Origin: Hyphomicrobiaceae bacterium
GTDB taxonomy: Bacteria; Pseudomonadota; Alphaproteobacteria; Rhizobiales; Hyphomicrobiaceae
DNA length: 64,000 nucleotides
Direction: 5' to 3'
Assembly (NCBI GenBank): GCA_030655135.1
Contig: JAURWC010000075.1
Location: 239,501 to 303,500 of the forward strand
Part shown: in pieces, positions 29,399 to 40,214 of the stretch
Numbering within the stretch: the stretch's first letter is position 1
How the letters are laid out: every line of letters starts with the position of its first letter
Notes under the pieces: generated by a model
The model's database searches: none
Told to the model about the DNA's origin: nothing
Seen by the model: only the letters and a program-made list of their open reading frames with translations
Made by a program: the position numbers and the translations under genes

Positions 29399-31599
29399 CA
29401 ACTGTCGAGGGGGCCCACATGGGCGGGGAGACGCAGTCACTCAACGCAGCGCAGGTTGCGCGCGCGGCGTTACGAGCAACTCAAATTTCTGCGGCACCAA
29501 AACCGGTGCCGCAGAAACCAGCACGCGTACGGCGGTCGCGCCCTGCAAGGCCTCACGTGCCGCGCGAGCCGCTGTTCGGCGCGGCGTCGGCACAGTTGGC
29601 GCATGCTGCCGAAGCCGCCGCAACTGCCGCACGCACTCTGAAAGACCGCATCGTCGCGTCTGCCGGCGACTGGCGCCTACCGCGGAACGCGCGCCCGGAC
29701 GCGTCTCTTCCCAAACTGGCCGATATGCCCGAACAAGATCCCACATCGACGCCCGTCGAGACCACACAGGTCAAGACCCTGTCGCAAGACAATCCGGCCA
29801 AGAATGTCGCGACCCAGCCGGCAGACGGCGATATCGGCGAGGCCCCCGTCGCAGCCGACCCGATGGCGGAATGGCGCGCCGTGGCCCGCCGTAACTTCGT
29901 CACCGTCGGCGTCTTCTCAGTCGTCGTCAATCTGCTCATGTTGACGATGCCGGTTTACCTGTTTCAGATTTCAGACCGCGTGCTCACCAGCCGCAGCATC
30001 GATACGCTCGTGATGCTGTCGGTGCTCGCGTTGATGTTCATTGGCGTGCTGTCGCTGCTCGACATCTTGCGCCGCCAGGTGCTTGGCGCCTTATCCACCA
30101 AGCTGGAAACGATCCTCGGTGGGCCCATCCTCGCCAGCATCGTCACGACAGCGCGCGCTGGCGACGGCGGTAACATCACGCCGATGCGCAGCTTGCACGC
30201 CGTCAAGAGCTTCATCGCCTCCCCGGTAATGCTGCTGCTGTTCGATGCGCCGCTGGCGCCGATCTATCTCGCCGTCGTGTTCCTCATTCATCCCGATCTC
30301 GGCTGGATCACCGTCGGGGCGGCAGTCACGCTCGTCGTCATCGCGCTGATCAATCAGCGCGCGACCTCGGTGCCACTCGGCCAGGCCGGTGCCCACGCCG
30401 CAAAGGCGGATGGCCACGCTGAAGCGCTGGCACGCAACTCGCAGGTCATCAATGCAATGGGGATGCTCAACGAAAGCATTCTGCATTGGGGACGCGAACA
30501 GGCACAGGCCCTCACGACGCAATCAGGCGCGTTAGAACGCAATTTCTGGATCAGTGGCGCCTCGAAAATGGCGCGCTTGATTACCCAGATCGTCATTCTC
30601 GGCTGGGGTGCCTATCTCGCGCTTGATGGGCATTTGACCGGCGGCATGATGATCGCGGCCTCCATCATTGCCGGGCGCGGATTGCAGCCCCTGGAAGGTA
30701 TGATCGAAGGGTGGCGCAGCGTGGTCCAAACGCGCGCCGCCTACGCCCGTGTCACGCAAGCTGTCGATCTGCTCAAGAACGATCCGCCGCGTCTGCGCCT
30801 ACCGCGCCCCAAGGGCCACCTCTCCGTCGATCGCCTGCTGTACCTTCCGGCCGGCACTAAGGAGCCCGTGCTCAACGGTATCAGCTTCGAGCTGAAGCCC
30901 GGCGAGTCGCTCGCGGTTGTCGGCCCGTCCGGCTCGGGCAAGTCGACGCTTGCCCGGCTCCTGGTTGGCTGCCTGTTGCCGACGGCGGGCAAGGTTCGCC
31001 TCGACGGCACCGAGCTGCGCAACTGGGATCGCCGCCAGTTCGGCGAATATACCGGCTACCTGCCGCAGGAAGTCGAGCTGTTTCCCGGCACCATCAAGGA
31101 GAACGTCTGCCGCATGCGCAACGACCTGCCGGACGAGCAGGTCTATGAGGCAGCCCAACTGACGGACGTGCACGATATGATCGCGCACATGTCGGGCGGC
31201 TACGAAACGCAGCTGGAACGTTCCGGCTCGCCGTTGTCCGGCGGTCAGAAGCAGCGTATCGCGCTGGCTCGCGCCTTCTTCGGCTCGCCTTCGCTCGTTG
31301 TGCTGGACGAACCCAACTCAAACCTCGACGCCATCGGCGAGCAGGCACTGACCGCTACGTTGAAGCGCGCCAAGCAGAAGGGCGTCACGGTCATCGTCGT
31401 CACGTTGCGTCCGGCTCTGCTGAGCAACGTCGACAAAGTCCTCATCCTGCGCGGCGGGCGCGCCGAGGCGTTCGGCGCTCCTCATGATGTGCTGCATCGC
31501 CTCGTCAAAACCGGCGCAACCACGACGGCTCCAACGGGTTCACCTGCGGCAGCAAATACGGCATCGGCTGCACCGGCGGCCGCAACGACTTCGGCTTAG
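29395..31599 (+). CDS. Type I secretion ABC transporter permease/ATPase with long N-terminal extension
   Basis: This 734-residue PrtD-type exporter energises one-step secretion across both membranes. The membrane domain (about residues 165-460) begins WRAVARRNFVTVGVFSVVVN. The ATPase has Walker A VVGPSGSGKST (about 508-518), Q-loop LPQEVELFPGT, signature LSGGQKQRIALARA (about 613) and Walker B VVLDEPNSNLD. Residues 1-160 are an Ala/Pro/charged, probably disordered extension that standard PrtD proteins lack; it is not a C39 peptidase. ATG 29395 overlaps the previous stop; ATG 29419 behind GAGGGGG is an equally good start. The HlyD gene follows after 14 bases. Confidence 0.92.
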   Translation: MTTVEGAHMGGETQSLNAAQVARAALRATQISAAPKPVPQKPARVRRSRPARPHVPREPLFGAASAQLAHAAEAAATAARTLKDRIVASAGDWRLPRNARPDASLPKLADMPEQDPTSTPVETTQVKTLSQDNPAKNVATQPADGDIGEAPVAADPMAEWRAVARRNFVTVGVFSVVVNLLMLTMPVYLFQISDRVLTSRSIDTLVMLSVLALMFIGVLSLLDILRRQVLGALSTKLETILGGPILASIVTTARAGDGGNITPMRSLHAVKSFIASPVMLLLFDAPLAPIYLAVVFLIHPDLGWITVGAAVTLVVIALINQRATSVPLGQAGAHAAKADGHAEALARNSQVINAMGMLNESILHWGREQAQALTTQSGALERNFWISGASKMARLITQIVILGWGAYLALDGHLTGGMMIAASIIAGRGLQPLEGMIEGWRSVVQTRAAYARVTQAVDLLKNDPPRLRLPRPKGHLSVDRLLYLPAGTKEPVLNGISFELKPGESLAVVGPSGSGKSTLARLLVGCLLPTAGKVRLDGTELRNWDRRQFGEYTGYLPQEVELFPGTIKENVCRMRNDLPDEQVYEAAQLTDVHDMIAHMSGGYETQLERSGSPLSGGQKQRIALARAFFGSPSLVVLDEPNSNLDAIGEQALTATLKRAKQKGVTVIVVTLRPALLSNVDKVLILRGGRAEAFGAPHDVLHRLVKTGATTTAPTGSPAAANTASAAPAAATTSA

Positions 31600-31613
31600 G
31601 AAGGTATATCGTC

Positions 31614-32966
31614 ATGTCCGCGGGAATTCCCTCGCTCAACCAGTGGCACCGCAGTGTGCGCTCCAACGTCAAGTGGCCCACCATTTTTGGCCTCGCGACG
31701 CTTATCCTCTGGGCTGGCGGTTTTGGCGTCTGGGCCGGCATTGCGCCGCTCGACGGCGCCGTCGTCGCCCCCGGCACATTCGTCGCTACCGGCCAGAACA
31801 AGCAGATCCAGCATTTCGAAGGCGGCATCGTTTCCGAGATGCTCGTGCGCGAAGGCGACACGGTCGAGCAGAACCAGCCGCTCGTGCGCCTCGATGAAAC
31901 CGCGTCGCGCGCCAAGCTGCGCCGTCTCGTGCTGCGCCGCTATCGCCTGTTGACGATGCAGGCCCGCCTCGACGCGGAAGTCGGCAATCGCGAGACCTTC
32001 GAGATGCCCGCAGCGCTCGTTGCCGAGGCGTCCGATCCTGAAGTGCGCGTCATCTTCGATCGCCAGCAGAATGAAATGCGCACGCGACGCGCCAAGCGCG
32101 TGGCCGAAGAGCAGGTGTTGAGCAAGGAAATCGCCGGCTTGCGGGAAAGCATCACAGGTTACAACGCCCAGGCGAAGTCGATCGATACGCGCCTCGGCCT
32201 GTTTACCGAGGAACTGAAGGACAAGTCCGACCTGCTCGATCGGCAACTGGTTCGCAAAACCGAAGTTCTGGCGCTGAGGCGTTCGGAGGCCGGTCTCTCC
32301 GGCGAGTTGGGCGAAACCATGGGCCGCATCGCCGACAGCAACGAGCGTGTCGCGCGCGCCGAACAGCAGGTGACGCAGATCCGCTCTGCGGCTATCCAGA
32401 AATCCGTTGAAGAGCTGCGCGAGACGGAAGGCGAACTGGACGATATCCAGGAGCAGATCCGCGCGGCCCAGGACATCCTGAAGCGCACAGAGATCCGCTC
32501 GCCCGTGCGTGGCGTCATCGTCAAGCTGCACCAGCATACCAACGGCGGCGTAGTCGCTCCGGGCGCGGTGATTCTCGAGATCCTGCCGGTGAACGACGCA
32601 TTGTTGATCGAAGCCCGCGTCGCGCCCAACGACATCTCTCACGTCAATTCCGGCCAGGACGCCCTGGTCCGCCTAAGCGCGCTCAACCAGCGCCTGACGC
32701 CGATGATCAAAGCGAAAGTCGTCTACCTTTCTGCCGACGCAGTGGCTGAGCAGTCGGTTCAATATAAGGAACAGAAGCCTGCTCGTGACAGCTTCGTGGT
32801 TCGTGTGGCGCTGGACGAGGCGGACATTCGCACCAAGATCTCGTCTTTCCGTCCGACGCCGGGCATGCCGGCCGAGGTCTTCATCAAAACCGGAGAACGC
32901 ACGTTCTTCGAATATATGATGCGCCCGGTCATGGATAGCTTCTCCCGGGCCTTCCGCGAGCACTGA
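31614..32966 (+). CDS. HlyD family type I secretion adaptor (membrane fusion protein)
   Basis: This 450-residue periplasmic adaptor links the ABC exporter to a TolC-like outer-membrane channel. It has one N-terminal membrane segment (about residues 22-45, LATLILWAGGFGVWAGIAPL) and a lipoyl half-motif (TGQNKQIQHFEGGIVSEMLV). A long coiled coil spans about 90-290, followed by the second half-motif RSPVRGVIVKLHQHTNGGVV and a beta-barrel end. The start is ATG 31614 behind AGGAAGG. No TolC gene is in the window, so the channel must be encoded elsewhere. Confidence 0.93.
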   Translation: MSAGIPSLNQWHRSVRSNVKWPTIFGLATLILWAGGFGVWAGIAPLDGAVVAPGTFVATGQNKQIQHFEGGIVSEMLVREGDTVEQNQPLVRLDETASRAKLRRLVLRRYRLLTMQARLDAEVGNRETFEMPAALVAEASDPEVRVIFDRQQNEMRTRRAKRVAEEQVLSKEIAGLRESITGYNAQAKSIDTRLGLFTEELKDKSDLLDRQLVRKTEVLALRRSEAGLSGELGETMGRIADSNERVARAEQQVTQIRSAAIQKSVEELRETEGELDDIQEQIRAAQDILKRTEIRSPVRGVIVKLHQHTNGGVVAPGAVILEILPVNDALLIEARVAPNDISHVNSGQDALVRLSALNQRLTPMIKAKVVYLSADAVAEQSVQYKEQKPARDSFVVRVALDEADIRTKISSFRPTPGMPAEVFIKTGERTFFEYMMRPVMDSFSRAFREH

Positions 32967-34062: not shown

Positions 34063-34087
34063 GGAACTCCCCCGCTTTGCCGACGTT
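34063..34087 (+). promoter_or_regulatory. EcfG-type general-stress promoter (GGAAC-N16-CGTT)
   Basis: The -35 GGAAC is at 34063-34067 and the -10 CGTT at 34084-34087, separated by exactly 16 bases. This is the consensus of EcfG sigma factors in alphaproteobacteria. The next gene starts at ATG 34123, so a transcript would begin around 34095. That rules out an in-frame ATG at 34090 as the start. Confidence 0.75.
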
Positions 34088-34122
34088 CGGTGTTCAGTTA
34101 TCCCTGCAACGGAGATTTCGCG

Positions 34123-35514
34123 ATGCCGCGCGCCCGCACCATGACGATCGTTTCCAGCATAGCAGTATTGGCCCTGTCGTCGGCTTCAGGTTCTGCTGCA
34201 GAAGAAAAAGCTGTTGGCTATGGCCCCTCTCCGAACCTGCCAAAGCCGCAAGAAGGCTGGATTCCGACGGTCAATATTGCTCCTGCCTCGTCGTGGAAGG
34301 ACGGGCAGACGCCCAAAGCAGCCGACGGGCTTGAGGTCAAATCTTTCGCATCCGGTCTCGACCATCCACGCTGGCTTTATGTGCTGCCGAATGGCGACGT
34401 TCTGGTGGCTGAGACCAATAAGCCCGAAACGGGTGGAGGCCGGGCTGGGATTAAAGGCTGGGTTATGGGCATGGTGATGAAGCGGGCCGGCGCAGGCGTC
34501 AAAAGTCCGGACCGCATTACCCTTTTGCGCGACACCGATGGCGACGGCGTCGCCGAAACCAAGAAAGTCTTCGCGTCGAACCTGACGTCCCCGTTCGGTA
34601 TGGTTCTGGTCGGTGAGACACTCTACATCGCCAACGCTGATGCCATCGTCAGCTTCCCCTACAAGGAAGGGCAGACGGAAGTCACGGGCGAGGCCAAGAA
34701 GGTTGCAGACCTTCCCGCCGCAATCAATCACCACTGGACCAAGAACCTCGTCGCCAGCAAAGACGGAACGAAGCTTTATGCTTCCGTCGGCTCGAACAGC
34801 AATATCGGCGAGAACGGCATGGATCAGGAAGAAAACCGTGCTGCAATTCTGGAAGTCGATCCCGCAACTGGAAGTACTCGCCTCTTCGCGTCCGGCTTGC
34901 GTAACCCTGTCGGCATGGCTTGGGAGCCACAGACCGGTGCCTTGTGGACGGCCGTAAATGAACGTGATGAGCTCGGCAACGACCTCGTACCCGACTACAT
35001 CACGACCGTAAAAGACGGCGGCTTCTACGGCTGGCCTTACAGCTATTACGGCCAGAATGTCGACACGCGCGTGCAGCCGCAGAAGCCGGAATTGGTCGAA
35101 AAGGCGATCGCGCCGGATTACGCTCTCGGCGCCCACACGGCCTCGCTGGGCTTGACCTTCGCCGAAGGCGCCAAGTTGTTGCCGGCGACGTTCGCCAACG
35201 GCGCCTTCATCGGTCAGCACGGCTCTTGGAACCGCAAGCCGATGGCCGGCTACAAAGTGATCTTCGTCCCGTTTGCCGACGGCAAGCCGAGCGGCGACCC
35301 GGTGGATGTGCTGGCCGGCTTCGTCGATGTTGGTGGCTATGCCCAAGGGCGCCCTGTCGGTGTGACGATTGATAAGACTGGCGCTCTTCTGGTCGCCGAT
35401 GATGTTGGCAACGTGGTCTGGCGAGTCGCAGGAGCAGGAGGGGGCCAACCGGCTGCCGATGCGGCAGAACCGGCAGCAGCGACCGGCTCAAGCGAAGGCA
35501 CCCCCAAACCGTAA
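34123..35514 (+). CDS. Exported PQQ-type glucose/sorbosone dehydrogenase-like protein
   Basis: This 463-residue protein has a signal peptide ([22 protein letters not shown]) and a six-bladed propeller of the L-sorbosone dehydrogenase family. Motifs include [121 protein letters not shown] and [10 protein letters not shown]. Members oxidise aldoses in the periplasm with PQQ, though many lack a tested substrate. The start is ATG 34123, behind ACGGAGA and downstream of an EcfG-type promoter. The tail is Ala/Gly/Pro-rich. The permease-like gene follows after 13 bases. Confidence 0.88.
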
Positions 35515-35527
35515 GCAGCAGGCCGAG

Positions 35528-35974
35528 ATGTCTGATCTGTTCCGCAAGTTCGCTGAACGAACCTCACACGCAGCAGGAACGCCTTGGGCGTTTCTGCTTG
35601 CTGCGTCGGCGATCGTGATATGGGCGGCCACTGGGCCGCTCTTTGCGTATTCGGACACGTGGCAACTGATCATCAACACGTCGACGACGATCGTCACGTT
35701 CTTGATGGTCTTCCTCATCCAGAACACCCAAAATCGCGATGCGCGTGTCGTTGCGCTGAAACTGGATGAGCTGTTGCGCGCCCTGCACGGCGCACGCACC
35801 GGCATGGTGAAACTTGATCACATGTCCGATGAAGAACTGGAGCACATTCAAGGCCAGTTCGAGGGTTTGGACGAGAAGTATTCGGCCCTCGTGCAGGACG
35901 ATATCGAGCACGTTCAACGCGAGCTACAGGATCGCCGCGCGAAGGCAAATCCGCCACAGCCTGCCAACAACTGA
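35528..35974 (+). CDS. Low-affinity iron permease family protein
   Basis: This 148-residue protein of the low-affinity iron permease family (PF04120-like) opens FRKFAERTSHAAGTPWAF and has two membrane helices (about residues 18-36 and 44-62). These are followed by IQNTQNRDARVVALKLDELLRA, the family hallmark, then a charged cytoplasmic tail (EELEHIQGQFEGLDEKY). Transport is not demonstrated for bacterial members. The start is ATG 35528, 13 bases after the dehydrogenase-like gene, so it likely shares its stress promoter. Confidence 0.85.
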   Translation: MSDLFRKFAERTSHAAGTPWAFLLAASAIVIWAATGPLFAYSDTWQLIINTSTTIVTFLMVFLIQNTQNRDARVVALKLDELLRALHGARTGMVKLDHMSDEELEHIQGQFEGLDEKYSALVQDDIEHVQRELQDRRAKANPPQPANN

Positions 35975-36169
35975 AGCAGTTTGACACATAAAAAGTCAGT
36001 CCGGGGCCCATTTTCGTTGCGCAACTGTCGCACCGGCACGGTCAAATCTCCGCCCTATTTTTCGTGCGCTTGACCGAACGAGAATCCGAATGCCCAATCA
36101 TTGAACACGCGCACGGCCCCAAACTTTAGGCCGTCGTTGGACCATGAGCTTTAGGGGGATGGATCCGCA

Positions 36170-37255
36170 TTGATTACGCGACCCGCTTTACAGATTCATG
36201 ACGAGCTTCGCCGGCGGCCTAAAATGTGGGCCGCTGCCGTCATCGTGCTAACGCTTCTCACCGCTGGTTTGGTTCCACAAAAAGTTTCAGCTGGTGTCGA
36301 CGCTGCAGTAGGCCCGTTCGGCCCCGAGGGGCCGCGGATGCGCGAGCAGTTCTGGATGGTTCCGAGCGGCGAGAGTGGCCGATACTTACGCGCAACTGTT
36401 TTCCGCCCCGAAGAGCCTGATGGCGCACAGGCTGGCGTAGGCCGACCCCGCCCCCTCGTAATCATCAATCACGGCACCGCTGAATCGACCCGCATGGCGG
36501 TCTCTATGCCCGTCTATTACTGGCTGTCGCGCTGGTTTGTCGACCGCGGCTATATCGTCGTGCTTCCACAGCGCCGCGGCCACGGGGCGACCGGTGGTTT
36601 GCTGTCCGAAGGTGTTGGCAACTGCGCCAACCCAGACCACTATCAGTCCGGTCAGGTGGCAGCCGACGATATTTCAGCTGTGGTCAGCTACTTCCAGACG
36701 CAGCCCTTCGTGTCTCAATCGGATATTGTGGTGGCCGGCATTTCGACGGGCGGCTGGGCGTCGCTGGCGTACTCCTCACGCAATCCAAAAGGCGTGAAGG
36801 CCGTCATCAACTTTTCAGGCGGACGCGGCGGCCATGCCGGCGGCATGCCGAACGCGGTTTGCGGTGAAAAGCGCTTGATCGAAACGGCTCGCCGCTATGG
36901 CGAAACGTCGCGCGTGCCAACGTTGTGGCTATACTCGAACAACGACAGCTATTTCGGCCCTGACCTGGCCCGGGCCATGGCGAAGGCCTGGAACACGTCG
37001 GGCGGCATGGCCGAACTGCATGTGCTGGGTGCGTATGGCGAAGAAGGCCATAACATCGCCGATGACCGCGCCGGCTGGGAATTGTGGGGCAACAATCTCA
37101 ACAGTTTCCTGTCGTCTGCAGGCGAGCCTGCTGTCGCCAGTGTTGGCGGCCAACAACCAGGGGCATCACAGGCGCAGGCCGCGCAGGAATCCACGGTCGC
37201 TTCGCAAGCAGCGTTCTCGCCTGCAAGTGATGTACACCTGATCGCACCGCGGTAG
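36170..37255 (+). CDS. Exported alpha/beta hydrolase (dienelactone hydrolase/S9-like)
   Basis: This 361-residue protein has an N-terminal hydrophobic segment (about residues 19-41; signal peptide or anchor). The hydrolase core shows LVIINHGTAEST (oxyanion region), RGYIVVLPQRRGHGATGG, nucleophile elbow VVAGISTGGWASLAYS (GxSxG, about residue 194), an acid region LWLYSNNDSYFGPDL and a likely catalytic His in GEEGHNIADD. The C-terminal tail is Ala/Gln/Ser-rich. The start is TTG 36170 with GGGGG upstream; ATG 36224 would still keep the hydrophobic segment. The substrate is unknown. Confidence 0.8.
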   Translation: MITRPALQIHDELRRRPKMWAAAVIVLTLLTAGLVPQKVSAGVDAAVGPFGPEGPRMREQFWMVPSGESGRYLRATVFRPEEPDGAQAGVGRPRPLVIINHGTAESTRMAVSMPVYYWLSRWFVDRGYIVVLPQRRGHGATGGLLSEGVGNCANPDHYQSGQVAADDISAVVSYFQTQPFVSQSDIVVAGISTGGWASLAYSSRNPKGVKAVINFSGGRGGHAGGMPNAVCGEKRLIETARRYGETSRVPTLWLYSNNDSYFGPDLARAMAKAWNTSGGMAELHVLGAYGEEGHNIADDRAGWELWGNNLNSFLSSAGEPAVASVGGQQPGASQAQAAQESTVASQAAFSPASDVHLIAPR

Positions 37256-37279
37256 ATCCCACCAAGTTCTCACCAAGAG

Positions 37280-37304
37280 ACAAAGCAATTTTGCCAATTG
37301 CTTT
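37280..37304. terminator. Perfect inverted repeat after the hydrolase gene
   Basis: CAAAGCAATT-TTGCC-AATTGCTTTG is a 10-bp perfect inverted repeat 25 bases after the stop codon. It lacks a T run, so it could be a weak terminator or a regulator site ahead of the next gene. Confidence 0.5.
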
Positions 37305-37335
37305 GTAGGCGCGGCGTTTGGCACCCTGTAAATTA

Positions 37336-37360
37336 GGAACCGGCCTGAAGCGAGCGAGTT
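37336..37360 (+). promoter_or_regulatory. Near-consensus EcfG-type promoter (GGAAC-N16-AGTT)
   Basis: GGAAC at 37336-37340 is followed after 16 bases by AGTT (one change from CGTT), 36 bases before the ATG at 37397. The spacing equals that of the perfect site at 34063. Confidence 0.5.
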
Positions 37361-37396
37361 GATCCTCCGCCCATCAAAGAAGGAGGAAAGATAATC

Positions 37397-37798
37397 ATGT
37401 TGACCAAAACAACCGCACTTTTGAGCACCGCCATCCTCGCGATCGGTGCCAGTACTGCGCTCGCCCAATCGACTGGCGGTAGCGCTGCGGATCCAAACAG
37501 CAATGCAAATCGTCAGCCGGCGCCGTCGGTTGGCAAACCCTCCGATCCTGCCGCAGGTGCTAAACCCTCCGCTCAGACCCCCACCGCTCCGGCAGGAACC
37601 AGCAGCGGAGCGTCGTCTGGCACCGGTTCTGGTGAGGTTGGCGCTGGCGGGACGCCCGCAGGTAGCGCGGCTGACCCCAACAGCGCGGAGAACCGCCAGC
37701 CAGCCCCGTCGACGCAGCCGTCTGATCCGGCAGCGGGTGCAAATCCCTCGGCCCGTCAGCCAACTTCGCCCGCGGGCACGGGTTCTTCAGCGCCTTAA
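37397..37798 (+). CDS. Small exported low-complexity protein with a two-fold internal repeat
   Basis: This 133-residue protein has a signal peptide (LLSTAILAIGASTALA) and a Pro/Ser/Gly/Ala-rich mature part. Two copies of a block of about 40 residues can be read: GSAADPNSNANRQPAPS...KPSDPAAGAKPSAQ and GSAADPNSAENRQPAPS...QPSDPAAGANPSAR. The start is ATG 37397 with AAGGAGGAA upstream, an unusually strong site, suggesting high expression. A near-consensus stress promoter precedes it and a strong terminator follows. The family is unknown; a periplasmic or surface location is inferred. Confidence 0.75.
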   Translation: MLTKTTALLSTAILAIGASTALAQSTGGSAADPNSNANRQPAPSVGKPSDPAAGAKPSAQTPTAPAGTSSGASSGTGSGEVGAGGTPAGSAADPNSAENRQPAPSTQPSDPAAGANPSARQPTSPAGTGSSAP

Positions 37799-37830
37799 TC
37801 GCGAAGTAGCGCTGAGCTGAAGATAAAGTG

Positions 37831-37857
37831 GAGGCTCGCCGCGTGGCGAGCCTCTTT
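37831..37857 (+). terminator. Rho-independent terminator after the small exported protein
   Basis: The 10-bp perfect stem GAGGCTCGCC-GCGT-GGCGAGCCTC is followed by TTTCC, 32 bases after the stop codon. Confidence 0.85.
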
Positions 37858-37918
37858 CCGTTCGTGCAACTTTTGCAGTGGTTGGCCGTTAATCAGCACG
37901 GGAATGGAGGCCCCAGCG

Positions 37919-38146
37919 ATGACGAATGACAAGCGCAAGGCGGCTGAGGAGAAGGAACTGGACGACGCGTTAGAACATACGTTTCCGGCAAGCGATCCAA
38001 TTTCTCTGAACGAAGATACCTCCGGTGAGGGTGCGCGCATCGACCGGGCACCGGCAAAGCTGGACCAGAATCTTGTTGAGCGGCTATCTCGAGAAGTGAA
38101 AGCGCGTGTCGATAAGAAGCGGGCGGACAAAACAAGTCCAGTCTGA
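37919..38146 (+). CDS. Small acidic/basic protein with FPASDP motif
   Basis: This 75-residue protein starts at ATG 37919 with GGAGG 8 bases upstream; that site lies inside the alternative five-codon extension from ATG 37904. It has the ELDDALEHTFPASDPIS motif seen in many short uncharacterised proteobacterial proteins, then a charged C-terminal helix (ERLSREVKARVDKKRADK). No membrane segment was seen. Position between stress-promoter genes suggests a stress role, but no function is known. Confidence 0.72.
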   Translation: MTNDKRKAAEEKELDDALEHTFPASDPISLNEDTSGEGARIDRAPAKLDQNLVERLSREVKARVDKKRADKTSPV

Positions 38147-38223
38147 ACGTGTTGAATGTTTCGGCTGTAGGCATGGCGGCGGCCGCAGGCTGAGTTATCT
38201 CGTGTGTGAGATGTGAGCGCGAT

Positions 38224-39336
38224 ATGCGGCGTAACGAGCTTCCGGTCGATCTTCCCCGTGCGACTGCGTCTGAAGCCCAAGCGGAAGAAGCCGGCTTGCG
38301 CTTCGTAAGCGACGCCGATCCAGGCATTACTCGCATTAAACCTAACAAGCTGTGGCGGTACACCGGGCCCGACGGCAAGACCATCCGCGATAACAAGTCT
38401 CTTGACCGCATCCGCTTGCTGGCGATCCCCCCGGCGTGGACCGACGTATGGATTTCGCCGCGTGCCAACGGGCATATTCAAGCCACCGGGCGTGATGCAC
38501 GAGGCCGCAAGCAATACATTTATCACGCGGATTGGAGGAAGACGCGCGACGAAGCCAAGTTTCATCGCATCTTGCAGTTTGCCCGAACGCTGCCTCGCGT
38601 CCGCCGCACGGTGAAGCGGCACATGGGACAGCGCGGTCTTGGGCGCGAAAAGGTGTTGGCGACGATCGTACATCTGCTTGAAACAACGCTTATCCGCGTC
38701 GGCAACCAGGAGTATGCGCGCAGCAATCAAAGCTTCGGTTTGTCGACATTGCAAGACAAGCACGTCACGTTCGCGGGCAGCCAGGTGCGCTTCAAGTTTC
38801 GCGGCAAGACGGGTAAGGAATGGCACCTGAAACTGAGCGACCGGCGCGTCTCGCGCATTGTGAAGTCATGCCAGGAGCTGCCTGGCCAGCACCTGTTTCA
38901 GTACGAAGATGCAGACGGCGTCGTACGCCAGGTCACGTCGGCGGACGTGAACAGCTATCTGCGCGACATCGCCAAGACTGAGGTTACGGCCAAGGACTTC
39001 CGCACGTGGGCGGGAACCGTCCTCGCAGCCATGGCGCTGTCAGAATTCGACAACGTCGACAGCGACACGGCCGCCAAACGCAACATCAAGAACGCGATCG
39101 TCGCAGTCGCCTCCCGCCTCGGCAATACGCCGACGATTTGCCGGAAATGCTACGTCCATCCCCAAGTCCTGGAGTGTTATCTGGAAGGCTCCCTCGTCGA
39201 CACGCTCAATCAAAAAGTTGCGCGCGAGCTGAAGGGGCTAGCGGCGCTGTCTCCCGAAGAGGCAGCGACGCTCGCTTTGCTTCATAACCGTCTATCAAGA
39301 CGAAAACGCCGTGGCGGGACGGCAAACGCGGGGTAG
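38224..39336 (+). CDS. DNA topoisomerase IB (poxvirus type)
   Basis: This 370-residue type IB topoisomerase relaxes supercoils through a 3'-phosphotyrosine intermediate. Motifs seen are the N-terminal YTGPDGKTIRD and RIRLLAIPPAWTDVWI, GRDARGRKQYIYHADWR, VGNQEYARSNQSFGLSTL, KFRGKTGKEW and FRTWAGTVLAA. The catalytic Tyr is about residue 310 in GNTPTICRKCYVHP. I chose ATG 38224; a GTG six codons earlier (38206) is possible. Its last 131 bases overlap, on the other strand, the 3' end of the NepR-like gene. Confidence 0.92.
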   Translation: MRRNELPVDLPRATASEAQAEEAGLRFVSDADPGITRIKPNKLWRYTGPDGKTIRDNKSLDRIRLLAIPPAWTDVWISPRANGHIQATGRDARGRKQYIYHADWRKTRDEAKFHRILQFARTLPRVRRTVKRHMGQRGLGREKVLATIVHLLETTLIRVGNQEYARSNQSFGLSTLQDKHVTFAGSQVRFKFRGKTGKEWHLKLSDRRVSRIVKSCQELPGQHLFQYEDADGVVRQVTSADVNSYLRDIAKTEVTAKDFRTWAGTVLAAMALSEFDNVDSDTAAKRNIKNAIVAVASRLGNTPTICRKCYVHPQVLECYLEGSLVDTLNQKVARELKGLAALSPEEAATLALLHNRLSRRKRRGGTANAG

Positions 39337-39490
39337 GGATGGCGCGATCCGCCGCTTTCGCGTTCTTTTCCGCAGCGGCGAGTTTGTCTAGTGCGCGCTG
39401 CAATCTCTCCGGCAGCGGCTGCGAGTCGACCTGAAATTCGGCCTGCAGCCGGTCCTGAAGATCTTCGATCATTGGGCTCCGCTCAGTCAT
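39206..39490 (-). CDS. NepR-like anti-sigma factor (candidate)
   Basis: This 94-residue protein starts at ATG 39490 with AAGGGAAG 8 bases upstream. Its first half, IEDLQDRLQAEFQVDSQPLPERLQRALDKLAAAE, resembles the two-helix core of NepR proteins (pattern L-x3-F/Y...P-x-P-E/D-R-x4-L-x-x-L), which sequester EcfG. A perfect EcfG-type promoter sits upstream, and nepR genes are usually EcfG-controlled. The second half is basic and lies antisense to the end of topoisomerase IB, longer than a typical NepR of about 60 residues. No ecfG or phyR gene is adjacent. The identity is an inference from motif plus promoter. Confidence 0.6.
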   Translation of the reverse strand: MTERSPMIEDLQDRLQAEFQVDSQPLPERLQRALDKLAAAEKNAKAADRAIPTPRLPSRHGVFVLIDGYEAKRASLPLRETAPLAPSARAQLFD

Positions 39491-39528
39491 CTGTGATCTT
39501 CCCTTGTAGCTTGGGCTCTCGGATATCA

Positions 39529-39555
39529 GAACGTAGCGGAGCCCAAAGACGTTCC
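39529..39555 (-). promoter_or_regulatory. EcfG-type promoter (GGAAC-N17-CGTTC) for the NepR-like gene
   Basis: On the minus strand GGAAC (39555-39551) is followed after 17 bases by CGTTC (39533-39529), 38 bases before the NepR-like ATG. Both boxes match the alphaproteobacterial general-stress consensus. Confidence 0.78.
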
Positions 39556-39652
39556 GCGCAAAGATTGTCGCGCTATGGGGAACCATTCGAAGCATGGGTT
39601 AAAGGGCCTATATCGGGTCCGGGCGAGCGCCGAGATTCTTCGTTCGGTCCGA

Positions 39653-39677
39653 GGAACTTGGACGTCATGCCCGTGTT
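39653..39677 (+). promoter_or_regulatory. Near-consensus EcfG-type promoter (GGAAC-N16-TGTT)
   Basis: GGAAC at 39653-39657 is followed after 16 bases by TGTT (one change from CGTT), 46 bases before ATG 39724. It points away from the divergent NepR-like gene's promoter. Confidence 0.5.
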
Positions 39678-39723: not shown

Positions 39724-40008
39724 ATGAAAACGTCAGGCTACACGGCTGAAGACCTGAAGACCCTCACCGAAGTCCTAGACGCTGCGATCCTCGAAGCCGC
39801 TGAGCGGGATCTGGACCTGCCCGTTTCCCTCATGACCCGTCGCCTGTTTGACGCTGCCCGTTGGGGCGAGCGCGATCCCGCCCGCCTGAAGGCAGAGGTG
39901 CTCGGCGACGCTCTCCTGCAAACACTGGCTGCTGCTGACACGTCGCGCTGGTCGTCCGCCATCATCGCGCTGGCCCCGAAGGTTTACGCCTCTCCTTACG
40001 CTGCTTAA
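39724..40008 (+). CDS. Small helical protein of unknown function
   Basis: This 94-residue protein starts at ATG 39724 with CGGAGAG just upstream. It is predicted all-helical by eye, with text such as DLKTLTEVLDAAILEAAERD and LMTRRLFDAARWGERDPARL, and no signal peptide or membrane segment. I do not recognise a family. It is preceded by a near-consensus stress promoter and is divergent from the NepR-like gene, so it may belong to the same regulon. Confidence 0.65.
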   Translation: MKTSGYTAEDLKTLTEVLDAAILEAAERDLDLPVSLMTRRLFDAARWGERDPARLKAEVLGDALLQTLAAADTSRWSSAIIALAPKVYASPYAA

Positions 40009-40138: not shown

Positions 40139-40214
40139 TGGTGCCCAGGGGCAGAATTGAACTGCCGACACTGCGATTTTCAGTCGCATGCTCTACCAAC
40201 TGAGCTACCTGGGC
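40139..40214 (-). tRNA. tRNA-Phe (anticodon GAA)
   Basis: The minus strand folds as a full cloverleaf. The acceptor is GCCCAGG/CCTGGGC, the D-stem GCTC/GAGC, and the anticodon stem TGCGA/TCGCA with loop CTGAAAA (GAA). The T-arm is GGCAG-TTCAATT-CTGCC, with discriminator A and an encoded CCA. Length is 76 bases. Confidence 0.97.

Follow-up and report, generated by a model that had tools for sequence, protein, structure and literature searches.

A local cluster of predicted EcfG-type promoters of the general stress response in a Hyphomicrobiaceae genome

Predicted promoter sites, motif, and placement at gene starts

We analyzed a stretch of 64,000 nucleotides (nt) from a Hyphomicrobiaceae bacterium (assembly GCA_030655135.1, contig JAURWC010000075.1, positions 239,501 to 303,500), referred to here as the window. 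In its region between positions 34,063 and 39,677, members of the general stress response regulon of alphaproteobacteria very probably lie clustered, with promoter sites that are predicted from the sequence to be read by the sigma factor EcfG. In this response, as established in other species, PhyR removes NepR from EcfG under stress. The three regulator genes nepR, ecfG, and phyR share one locus, C17:167-169 kb, in the 4.06-Mb genome to which the window belongs; the NepR encoded there scores 51.9 bits against the Pfam NepR family (PF18557), and two divergent exact sites adjoin the locus.

The cluster consists of five sites. Two of them match GGAAC-N16/17-CGTT exactly and are the only such matches in the window, namely, GGAAC-N16-CGTT on the plus strand (34063 to 34087), which heads a gene pair for a glucose/sorbosone-dehydrogenase-like (GSDH-like) protein and an iron permease, and GGAAC-N17-CGTT(C) on the minus strand (39530 to 39555), which precedes a NepR-like open reading frame (ORF). 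The latter has the highest position weight matrix score in the window (18.7), followed by the former (16.9). The other three sites are on the plus strand and carry one mismatch each: GGAAC-N16-AGTT (37336 to 37360) before a gene for a secreted small protein, GCAAC-N16-CGTT (37866 to 37890) at the head of a small gene at 37919 and a topoisomerase IB gene, and GGAAC-N16-TGTT (39653 to 39677) before a small gene at 39724. The distances from the end of the -10 box to the start codon are 35, 39, 36, and 46 nt for the sites at 34063, 39555, 37336, and 39653, respectively. The first-pass annotation had listed these four sites and a spacing of 35 to 50 bases, and our motif search of the window reproduced their coordinates, mismatch status, and spacing; the fifth site at 37866 had been overlooked, as had topoisomerase IB, the most telling gene of the region.

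To define the motif of the host's family, we used 30 nepR loci, of 49 matches, which were picked by NepR score and thus independently of the motif; expected counts were derived from 400 kb of the host's own sequence. At these loci, GGAAC-N16-CGTT occurred 47 times versus 1.35 expected and GGAAC-N17-CGTT 18 times versus 0.68 expected, and spacings of 12 to 15 and 18 to 22 gave 0 to 4 occurrences each. The family motif is GGAAC-N16/17-CGTT, which agrees with the EcfG consensus that the first-pass annotation had used. Forms with one mismatch were much scarcer than these, with 6 occurrences of the -10 variant AGTT (0.68 expected) and 5 of GGTT (0.9 expected). A further exact match with an N18 spacer, antisense within a hydrolase frame (36276, minus strand), was rejected as a promoter because N18 is barely enriched at the nepR loci (2 versus 0.9 expected).

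Counted across the genome, the bare motif carries no signal: the exact form occurs 110 times in 4.06 Mb versus 104 times for the reversed control, its density is not raised in the window (2 versus a genome mean of 1.74 per 64 kb), and the scores of the one-mismatch sites fall in the background range (54 sites scoring at least 11 in 400 kb). These figures are what would be expected if the matches had arisen by chance, given that an exact match occurs every 37 kb and that sites with one mismatch are common. The first-pass annotation had suggested such a scan and had named equal density throughout the genome as evidence against its claim; the bare density does equal the genome mean. Bare motif counting and, for the one-mismatch sites, the uninformative motif score alone were dropped as tests, and since the bare count was without signal, placement at gene starts was used. 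Sites were classed as promoter placed when they lay outside called coding frames and at most 250 nt upstream of a same-strand gene, the genes being called with a home-made codon-usage caller. By this definition, 50 of 100 listed exact sites (of the 110) were promoter placed, versus 5 of 67 control motifs taken from 464 kb, window included (wrong-spacing, 5 of 53; reversed, 0 of 14; Fisher P of 2e-9). The remaining listed sites were intergenic in other positions (18), inside frames (26), or in a frame yet upstream of a gene (6). The minus-strand site at 39555 is not among the 50, as the caller did not call its ORF. Judging from their translations, the genes behind promoter-placed sites presumably include those for CsbD-like, DUF1328-like, PRC-barrel, trehalose-synthesis, and YciF-like proteins.

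The same picture emerged locally. Between 33.9 and 40.1 kb, an exact or one-mismatch site precedes the start of five of eight genes by 15 to 120 nt; the corresponding numbers are 1 of 42 genes for the remainder of the window and 14 of 356 for the 400-kb background. Three of the eight (35528, 37397, and the NepR-like ORF; two of the three with sites) had not been called with these starts and were added by hand, and with genes from the caller alone the count is three of six; the iron permease gene, which appears twice in the gene-start listing, was counted once. This placement argues against chance, as does the conservation, detailed below, of sites with the same spacing upstream of related genes for four of the promoters; for the fifth, 39555, we found no orthologous sequence to compare. 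We therefore regard chance as a very unlikely source of the sites.

Promoter-placed sites also cluster in other parts of the genome. On ten large contigs with 49 such sites, 12 neighboring pairs lay within 5.5 kb versus 3.96 expected, and the maximum in 2000 simulations was 11, which is also the observed number once the hand-added 39555 site is left out. Regarding the "stress regulon island" proposed by the first-pass annotation, the local excess at gene starts holds and the special density does not: the island exists, the genome contains several of them, and its kind is ordinary. As a separate observation, 27 kb within C17:298-330 kb (L198, L199) hold eight exact matches to the EcfG-type motif, and this region carries a GSDH relative (29 to 35% identity) and two members of the 39724 family.

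Genes behind the sites and their relatives

The topoisomerase IB gene (38206 to 39336, plus strand; start at 38206 or 38224) encodes a protein with matches above the cut-off to Topoisom_I (PF01028; 134.8 bits) and Top1B_N_bact (PF21338; 87.3 bits). It is probably cotranscribed with the small gene in front of it (37919 to 38146, plus strand), whose 75-amino-acid (aa) product has an HTFPASDPIS motif, no Pfam family, and an aligned counterpart in a contig of a sister genome (L147). In this sister contig the topoisomerase IB is 80% identical, and the 37866 site recurs with the same GCAAC, N16, and CGTT, the spacer differing fully enough. A site with at most one mismatch within 270 nt was found at 33 of 42 alphaproteobacterial topoisomerase IB loci (5 exact); the corresponding figures are one of eight for loci outside the alphaproteobacteria and 52 of 1178 for control windows. 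The count covers 50 of 51 loci, with L168 excluded for too little upstream sequence, and the sister locus figures in it as a miss because its site stands before the upstream small gene. GCAAC, the -35 variant seen at 37866, is present at 7 of the 14 Paracoccus loci in this set and CGAAC at 4.

The GSDH-like protein (34123 to 35514, plus strand; 463 aa) scores 51.3 bits against Pfam GSDH (PF07995; cut-off of 25), reached the cut-off of no NCBIfam model, and has weak similarity to solved dehydrogenases that are pyrroloquinoline quinone (PQQ) dependent or related to these (E values of 3e-6 to 1e-4). The gene for the low-affinity iron permease family protein (35528 to 35974, plus strand; Pfam Iron_permease, 166.4 bits) follows after 13 nt and is probably on the same transcript. 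Pfam thus bears out both the dehydrogenase-like and the iron permease gene of the first-pass annotation. An iron permease beside the GSDH-like gene was not found at the other 28 loci tested (L066-L093; 1.5-kb flanks). The family sample contains 15 GSDH orthologues with 54 to 67% identity, nine of which have a site upstream (2 exact, 7 with one mismatch; P of 6e-7 relative to the background rate). This count is based on L065-L080 (16 loci, own included) of 41 matches; more distant matches were excluded, as was L094, which is 70% identical but starts at residue 175.

The gene at 37397 to 37798 (plus strand) encodes an apparently secreted 133-aa protein with a repeated segment and without a Pfam or NCBIfam family; 12 of the 60 family genomes, counting the host's own, contain matches. 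Upstream of 8 of its 13 relatives we found a site with at most one mismatch (14 of 16 loci counted, the window's among them; L101 and L103 were excluded as partial matches not reaching the start). Three orthologues share GGAAC-N16-AGTT 43 to 53 nt before the match, with different spacers. The sister contig ends within this gene, so that the 37336 site cannot be compared there.

The gene at 39724 to 40008 (plus strand) encodes a 94-aa protein with a GERDxxRLKA motif that has no Pfam family and belongs to a small family of its own, present in 6 of the 60 family genomes (the host among these, with four copies) and in 3 of 297 genomes of the order, all three of the host's bacterial family. All nine relatives (L113-L120 and L277) have an exact or one-mismatch site upstream, five of them exact, so that a stress-type site stands at all ten loci examined, own included. 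In the sister contig GGAAC-N16-TGTT is kept and the spacer differs in part.

A number of observations weigh against reading the region as part of the EcfG regulon, besides the unraised density and the background-level scores given above. (i) The site is missing upstream of 6 of the 15 GSDH orthologues, 9 of the 42 alphaproteobacterial topoisomerase IB loci, and 5 of the 13 relatives of the secreted protein. (ii) Of the 42 topoisomerase IB loci, 14 are from Paracoccus, the three orthologues with AGTT are all from genus g21, so that this footprint derives from one genus, and the 37866 footprint derives from a single sister contig. (iii) Two of the variants are hardly enriched at the nepR loci, namely, TGTT, as at 39653 (2 versus 1.13 expected), and GCAAC, as at 37866 (6 versus 3.15 expected). 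(iv) A search of the sister genome (83% complete) did not find the GSDH gene, and the sister contig lacks the NepR-like segment. On balance, recognition by EcfG is well supported as a prediction for 34063, 37336, and 39653 and supported for 37866 by the sister contig together with the wider topoisomerase IB pattern; for 39555 it is suggested by motif and placement. The claim of EcfG-type promoters made in the first-pass annotation thereby gains from the genome's own nepR-ecfG-phyR locus, from the family motif, and, in four of five cases, from the presence of sites upstream of orthologous genes.

Some of the sites may instead be read by a second extracytoplasmic function (ECF) sigma factor with the same specificity. 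A candidate is the 195-aa EcfG-like protein at C94:98276 (L064), which scores 28.8 bits against PhyR_sigma2 (cut-off of 27); a second PhyR-like protein at C65:23079 (L063) is also above this cut-off (45.8 bits), and EcfG paralogues recognize similar promoters in Methylobacterium extorquens, according to PMC4814048. The motif learned at the nepR loci is the motif found here, which speaks for EcfG, although it does not separate the two sigma factors. We consider the second factor an unlikely reader of these sites.

Two further features concern the surroundings of the EcfG-type sites. The alpha/beta hydrolase gene between the iron permease and the secreted protein (36170 to 37255, plus strand; Pfam Hydrolase_4, 41.4 bits; start uncertain, 36170 or 36338) is one for which no EcfG-type site was found, the best candidate upstream of the called start at 36338 having three mismatches. 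Beyond the 3' end of the 39724 gene, the sister contig carries ABC/HlyD-like export genes in reversed orientation; in the window, these genes (29857 to 32966) lie at the opposite flank of the cluster, and a tRNA-Phe gene (40139 to 40214, minus strand) follows 39724. The two arrangements point to a likely inversion or transposition between them.

The NepR-like ORF on the minus strand

The exact site at 39555 precedes a 94-aa ORF (39206 to 39490, minus strand), the last 131 nt of which run antisense over the end of the topoisomerase IB gene. A NepR profile built from the NepRs of 27 of the 30 family loci gave this ORF 13.9 bits in a single stretch (E value of 0.0042), with at most 6.3 bits in 2000 shuffles, and ranked it second of 6,693 six-frame ORFs, after the true NepR; the second helix alone was aligned. 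By eye, the ORF has an L-x-x-x-F pair where NepR has L-R-x-x-Y/F, and a PLPERL segment is also kept; the L-R-x-x-Y/F positions matter in NepR2 of Sphingomonas melonis, as stated in PMC6599016. No match to Pfam NepR was obtained at E values up to 1, and searches of Pfam, NCBIfam, and the Protein Data Bank (PDB) with this ORF returned nothing usable. The NepR-like gene of the first-pass annotation thus receives weak support, from the family profile and not from Pfam.

We tentatively propose, at somewhat less than even probability, that the ORF would act as an EcfG-driven brake on the response. EcfG-driven NepR paralogues with a presumed braking role are known in S. melonis and M. extorquens, and such feedback would therefore be known in kind. 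An alternative that comes close to an even chance is that the ORF is not a gene and that 39555 drives an antisense or noncoding transcript over the topoisomerase IB 3' end, or nothing. It accords with the 131-nt overlap, with the noncoding score of the distal part (-7, compared with about +18 over the first 50 or so codons, which score as coding and argue for a gene), and with the lack of homologues at an E value of 0.001 in the other 59 family genomes and of the segment in the sister contig. Moreover, when the profile was run on a second set, of 8,519 ORFs, it scored a frame of 576 aa at 14.2 bits, and such scores can therefore arise by chance in long frames; against this, the best single stretch of that frame is much weaker (E value of 0.86), whereas the 13.9 bits of the ORF fall in one stretch and come second only to the true NepR. 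Among 51 topoisomerase IB loci this frame was also the best candidate for a NepR-like neighbor, and none was convincing.

Two related ORFs behind EcfG-type sites likewise argue for a gene. One at C42:178 kb (E value of 0.0017) has GGAAC-N16-GGTT upstream, though it lacks a NepR profile match (-1.0 bits at best); a weaker one at C17:327 kb (E value of 0.3) starts 7 nt after an exact site. It is conceivable, if doubtful, that the NepR-like ORF, the C42 ORF, and perhaps the C17 ORF are fast-evolving, EcfG-driven mini-NepRs that would brake the response by competing for PhyR. The GERDxxRLKA protein at 39724 was also considered as NepR-like and was rejected (0.3 bits with the NepR profile).

The proposed course of events is as follows. 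Stress would cause PhyR to free EcfG from NepR, an event transferred from other species to a genome in which the three genes are present. RNA polymerase holoenzyme with EcfG would then initiate transcription from as many as five sites, presumably with induction under stress. The output would comprise the GSDH-like protein and iron permease, the secreted repeat protein, the small protein with topoisomerase IB, and the GERDxxRLKA protein. Finally, the NepR-like product of the other strand might dampen the response by binding PhyR or EcfG.

Relation to known general stress regulons

The analysis supplies variant promoters that can be tested (GCAAC as -35; AGTT and TGTT as -10), indicates topoisomerase IB as a recurrent general stress gene across the alphaproteobacterial loci examined, and singles out the 39724 family, without a Pfam model and with a stress-type promoter at ten of ten loci. 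In the literature searched, topoisomerase IB, the general stress response, and alphaproteobacteria were found jointly only in the S. melonis paper (PMC6599016); a broader search also pointed to PMC8877191. With known bacterial topoisomerases IB the window protein shares both domains, and there is nothing unusual about the protein itself.

For M. extorquens, PMC4814048 describes the NepR paralogue META2_0735 as EcfG dependent and proposes that it limits the response through PhyR. The NepR-like ORF resembles META2_0735 in standing behind an EcfG-type promoter; unlike it, the ORF is far more diverged, is not matched by the Pfam NepR family, and was seen in just a single genome.

The closest counterpart is the regulon of S. 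melonis Fr1, for which PMC6599016 tables topoisomerase IB (#1831) as EcfG dependent with a GGAAC site, contains GCAAC sites in the same table of EcfG-dependent genes, reports a predicted small secreted protein as EcfG dependent, and assigns negative feedback to the EcfG-controlled NepR paralogue NepR2. The terms "sorbosone," "quinoprotein," and "iron permease" were not found in the main text of that article. The two systems differ in that regulation in the window is predicted from sequence and in the window spacing of N16 or N17 to CGTT. They have in common the GGAAC -35 element, a GTT-containing -10 element, topoisomerase IB, a small secreted protein, and, should the NepR-like ORF prove to be one, a NepR paralogue. 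The region in the window thus extends a well-studied stress regulon to another alphaproteobacterium and is a case of a known system, not a new one.

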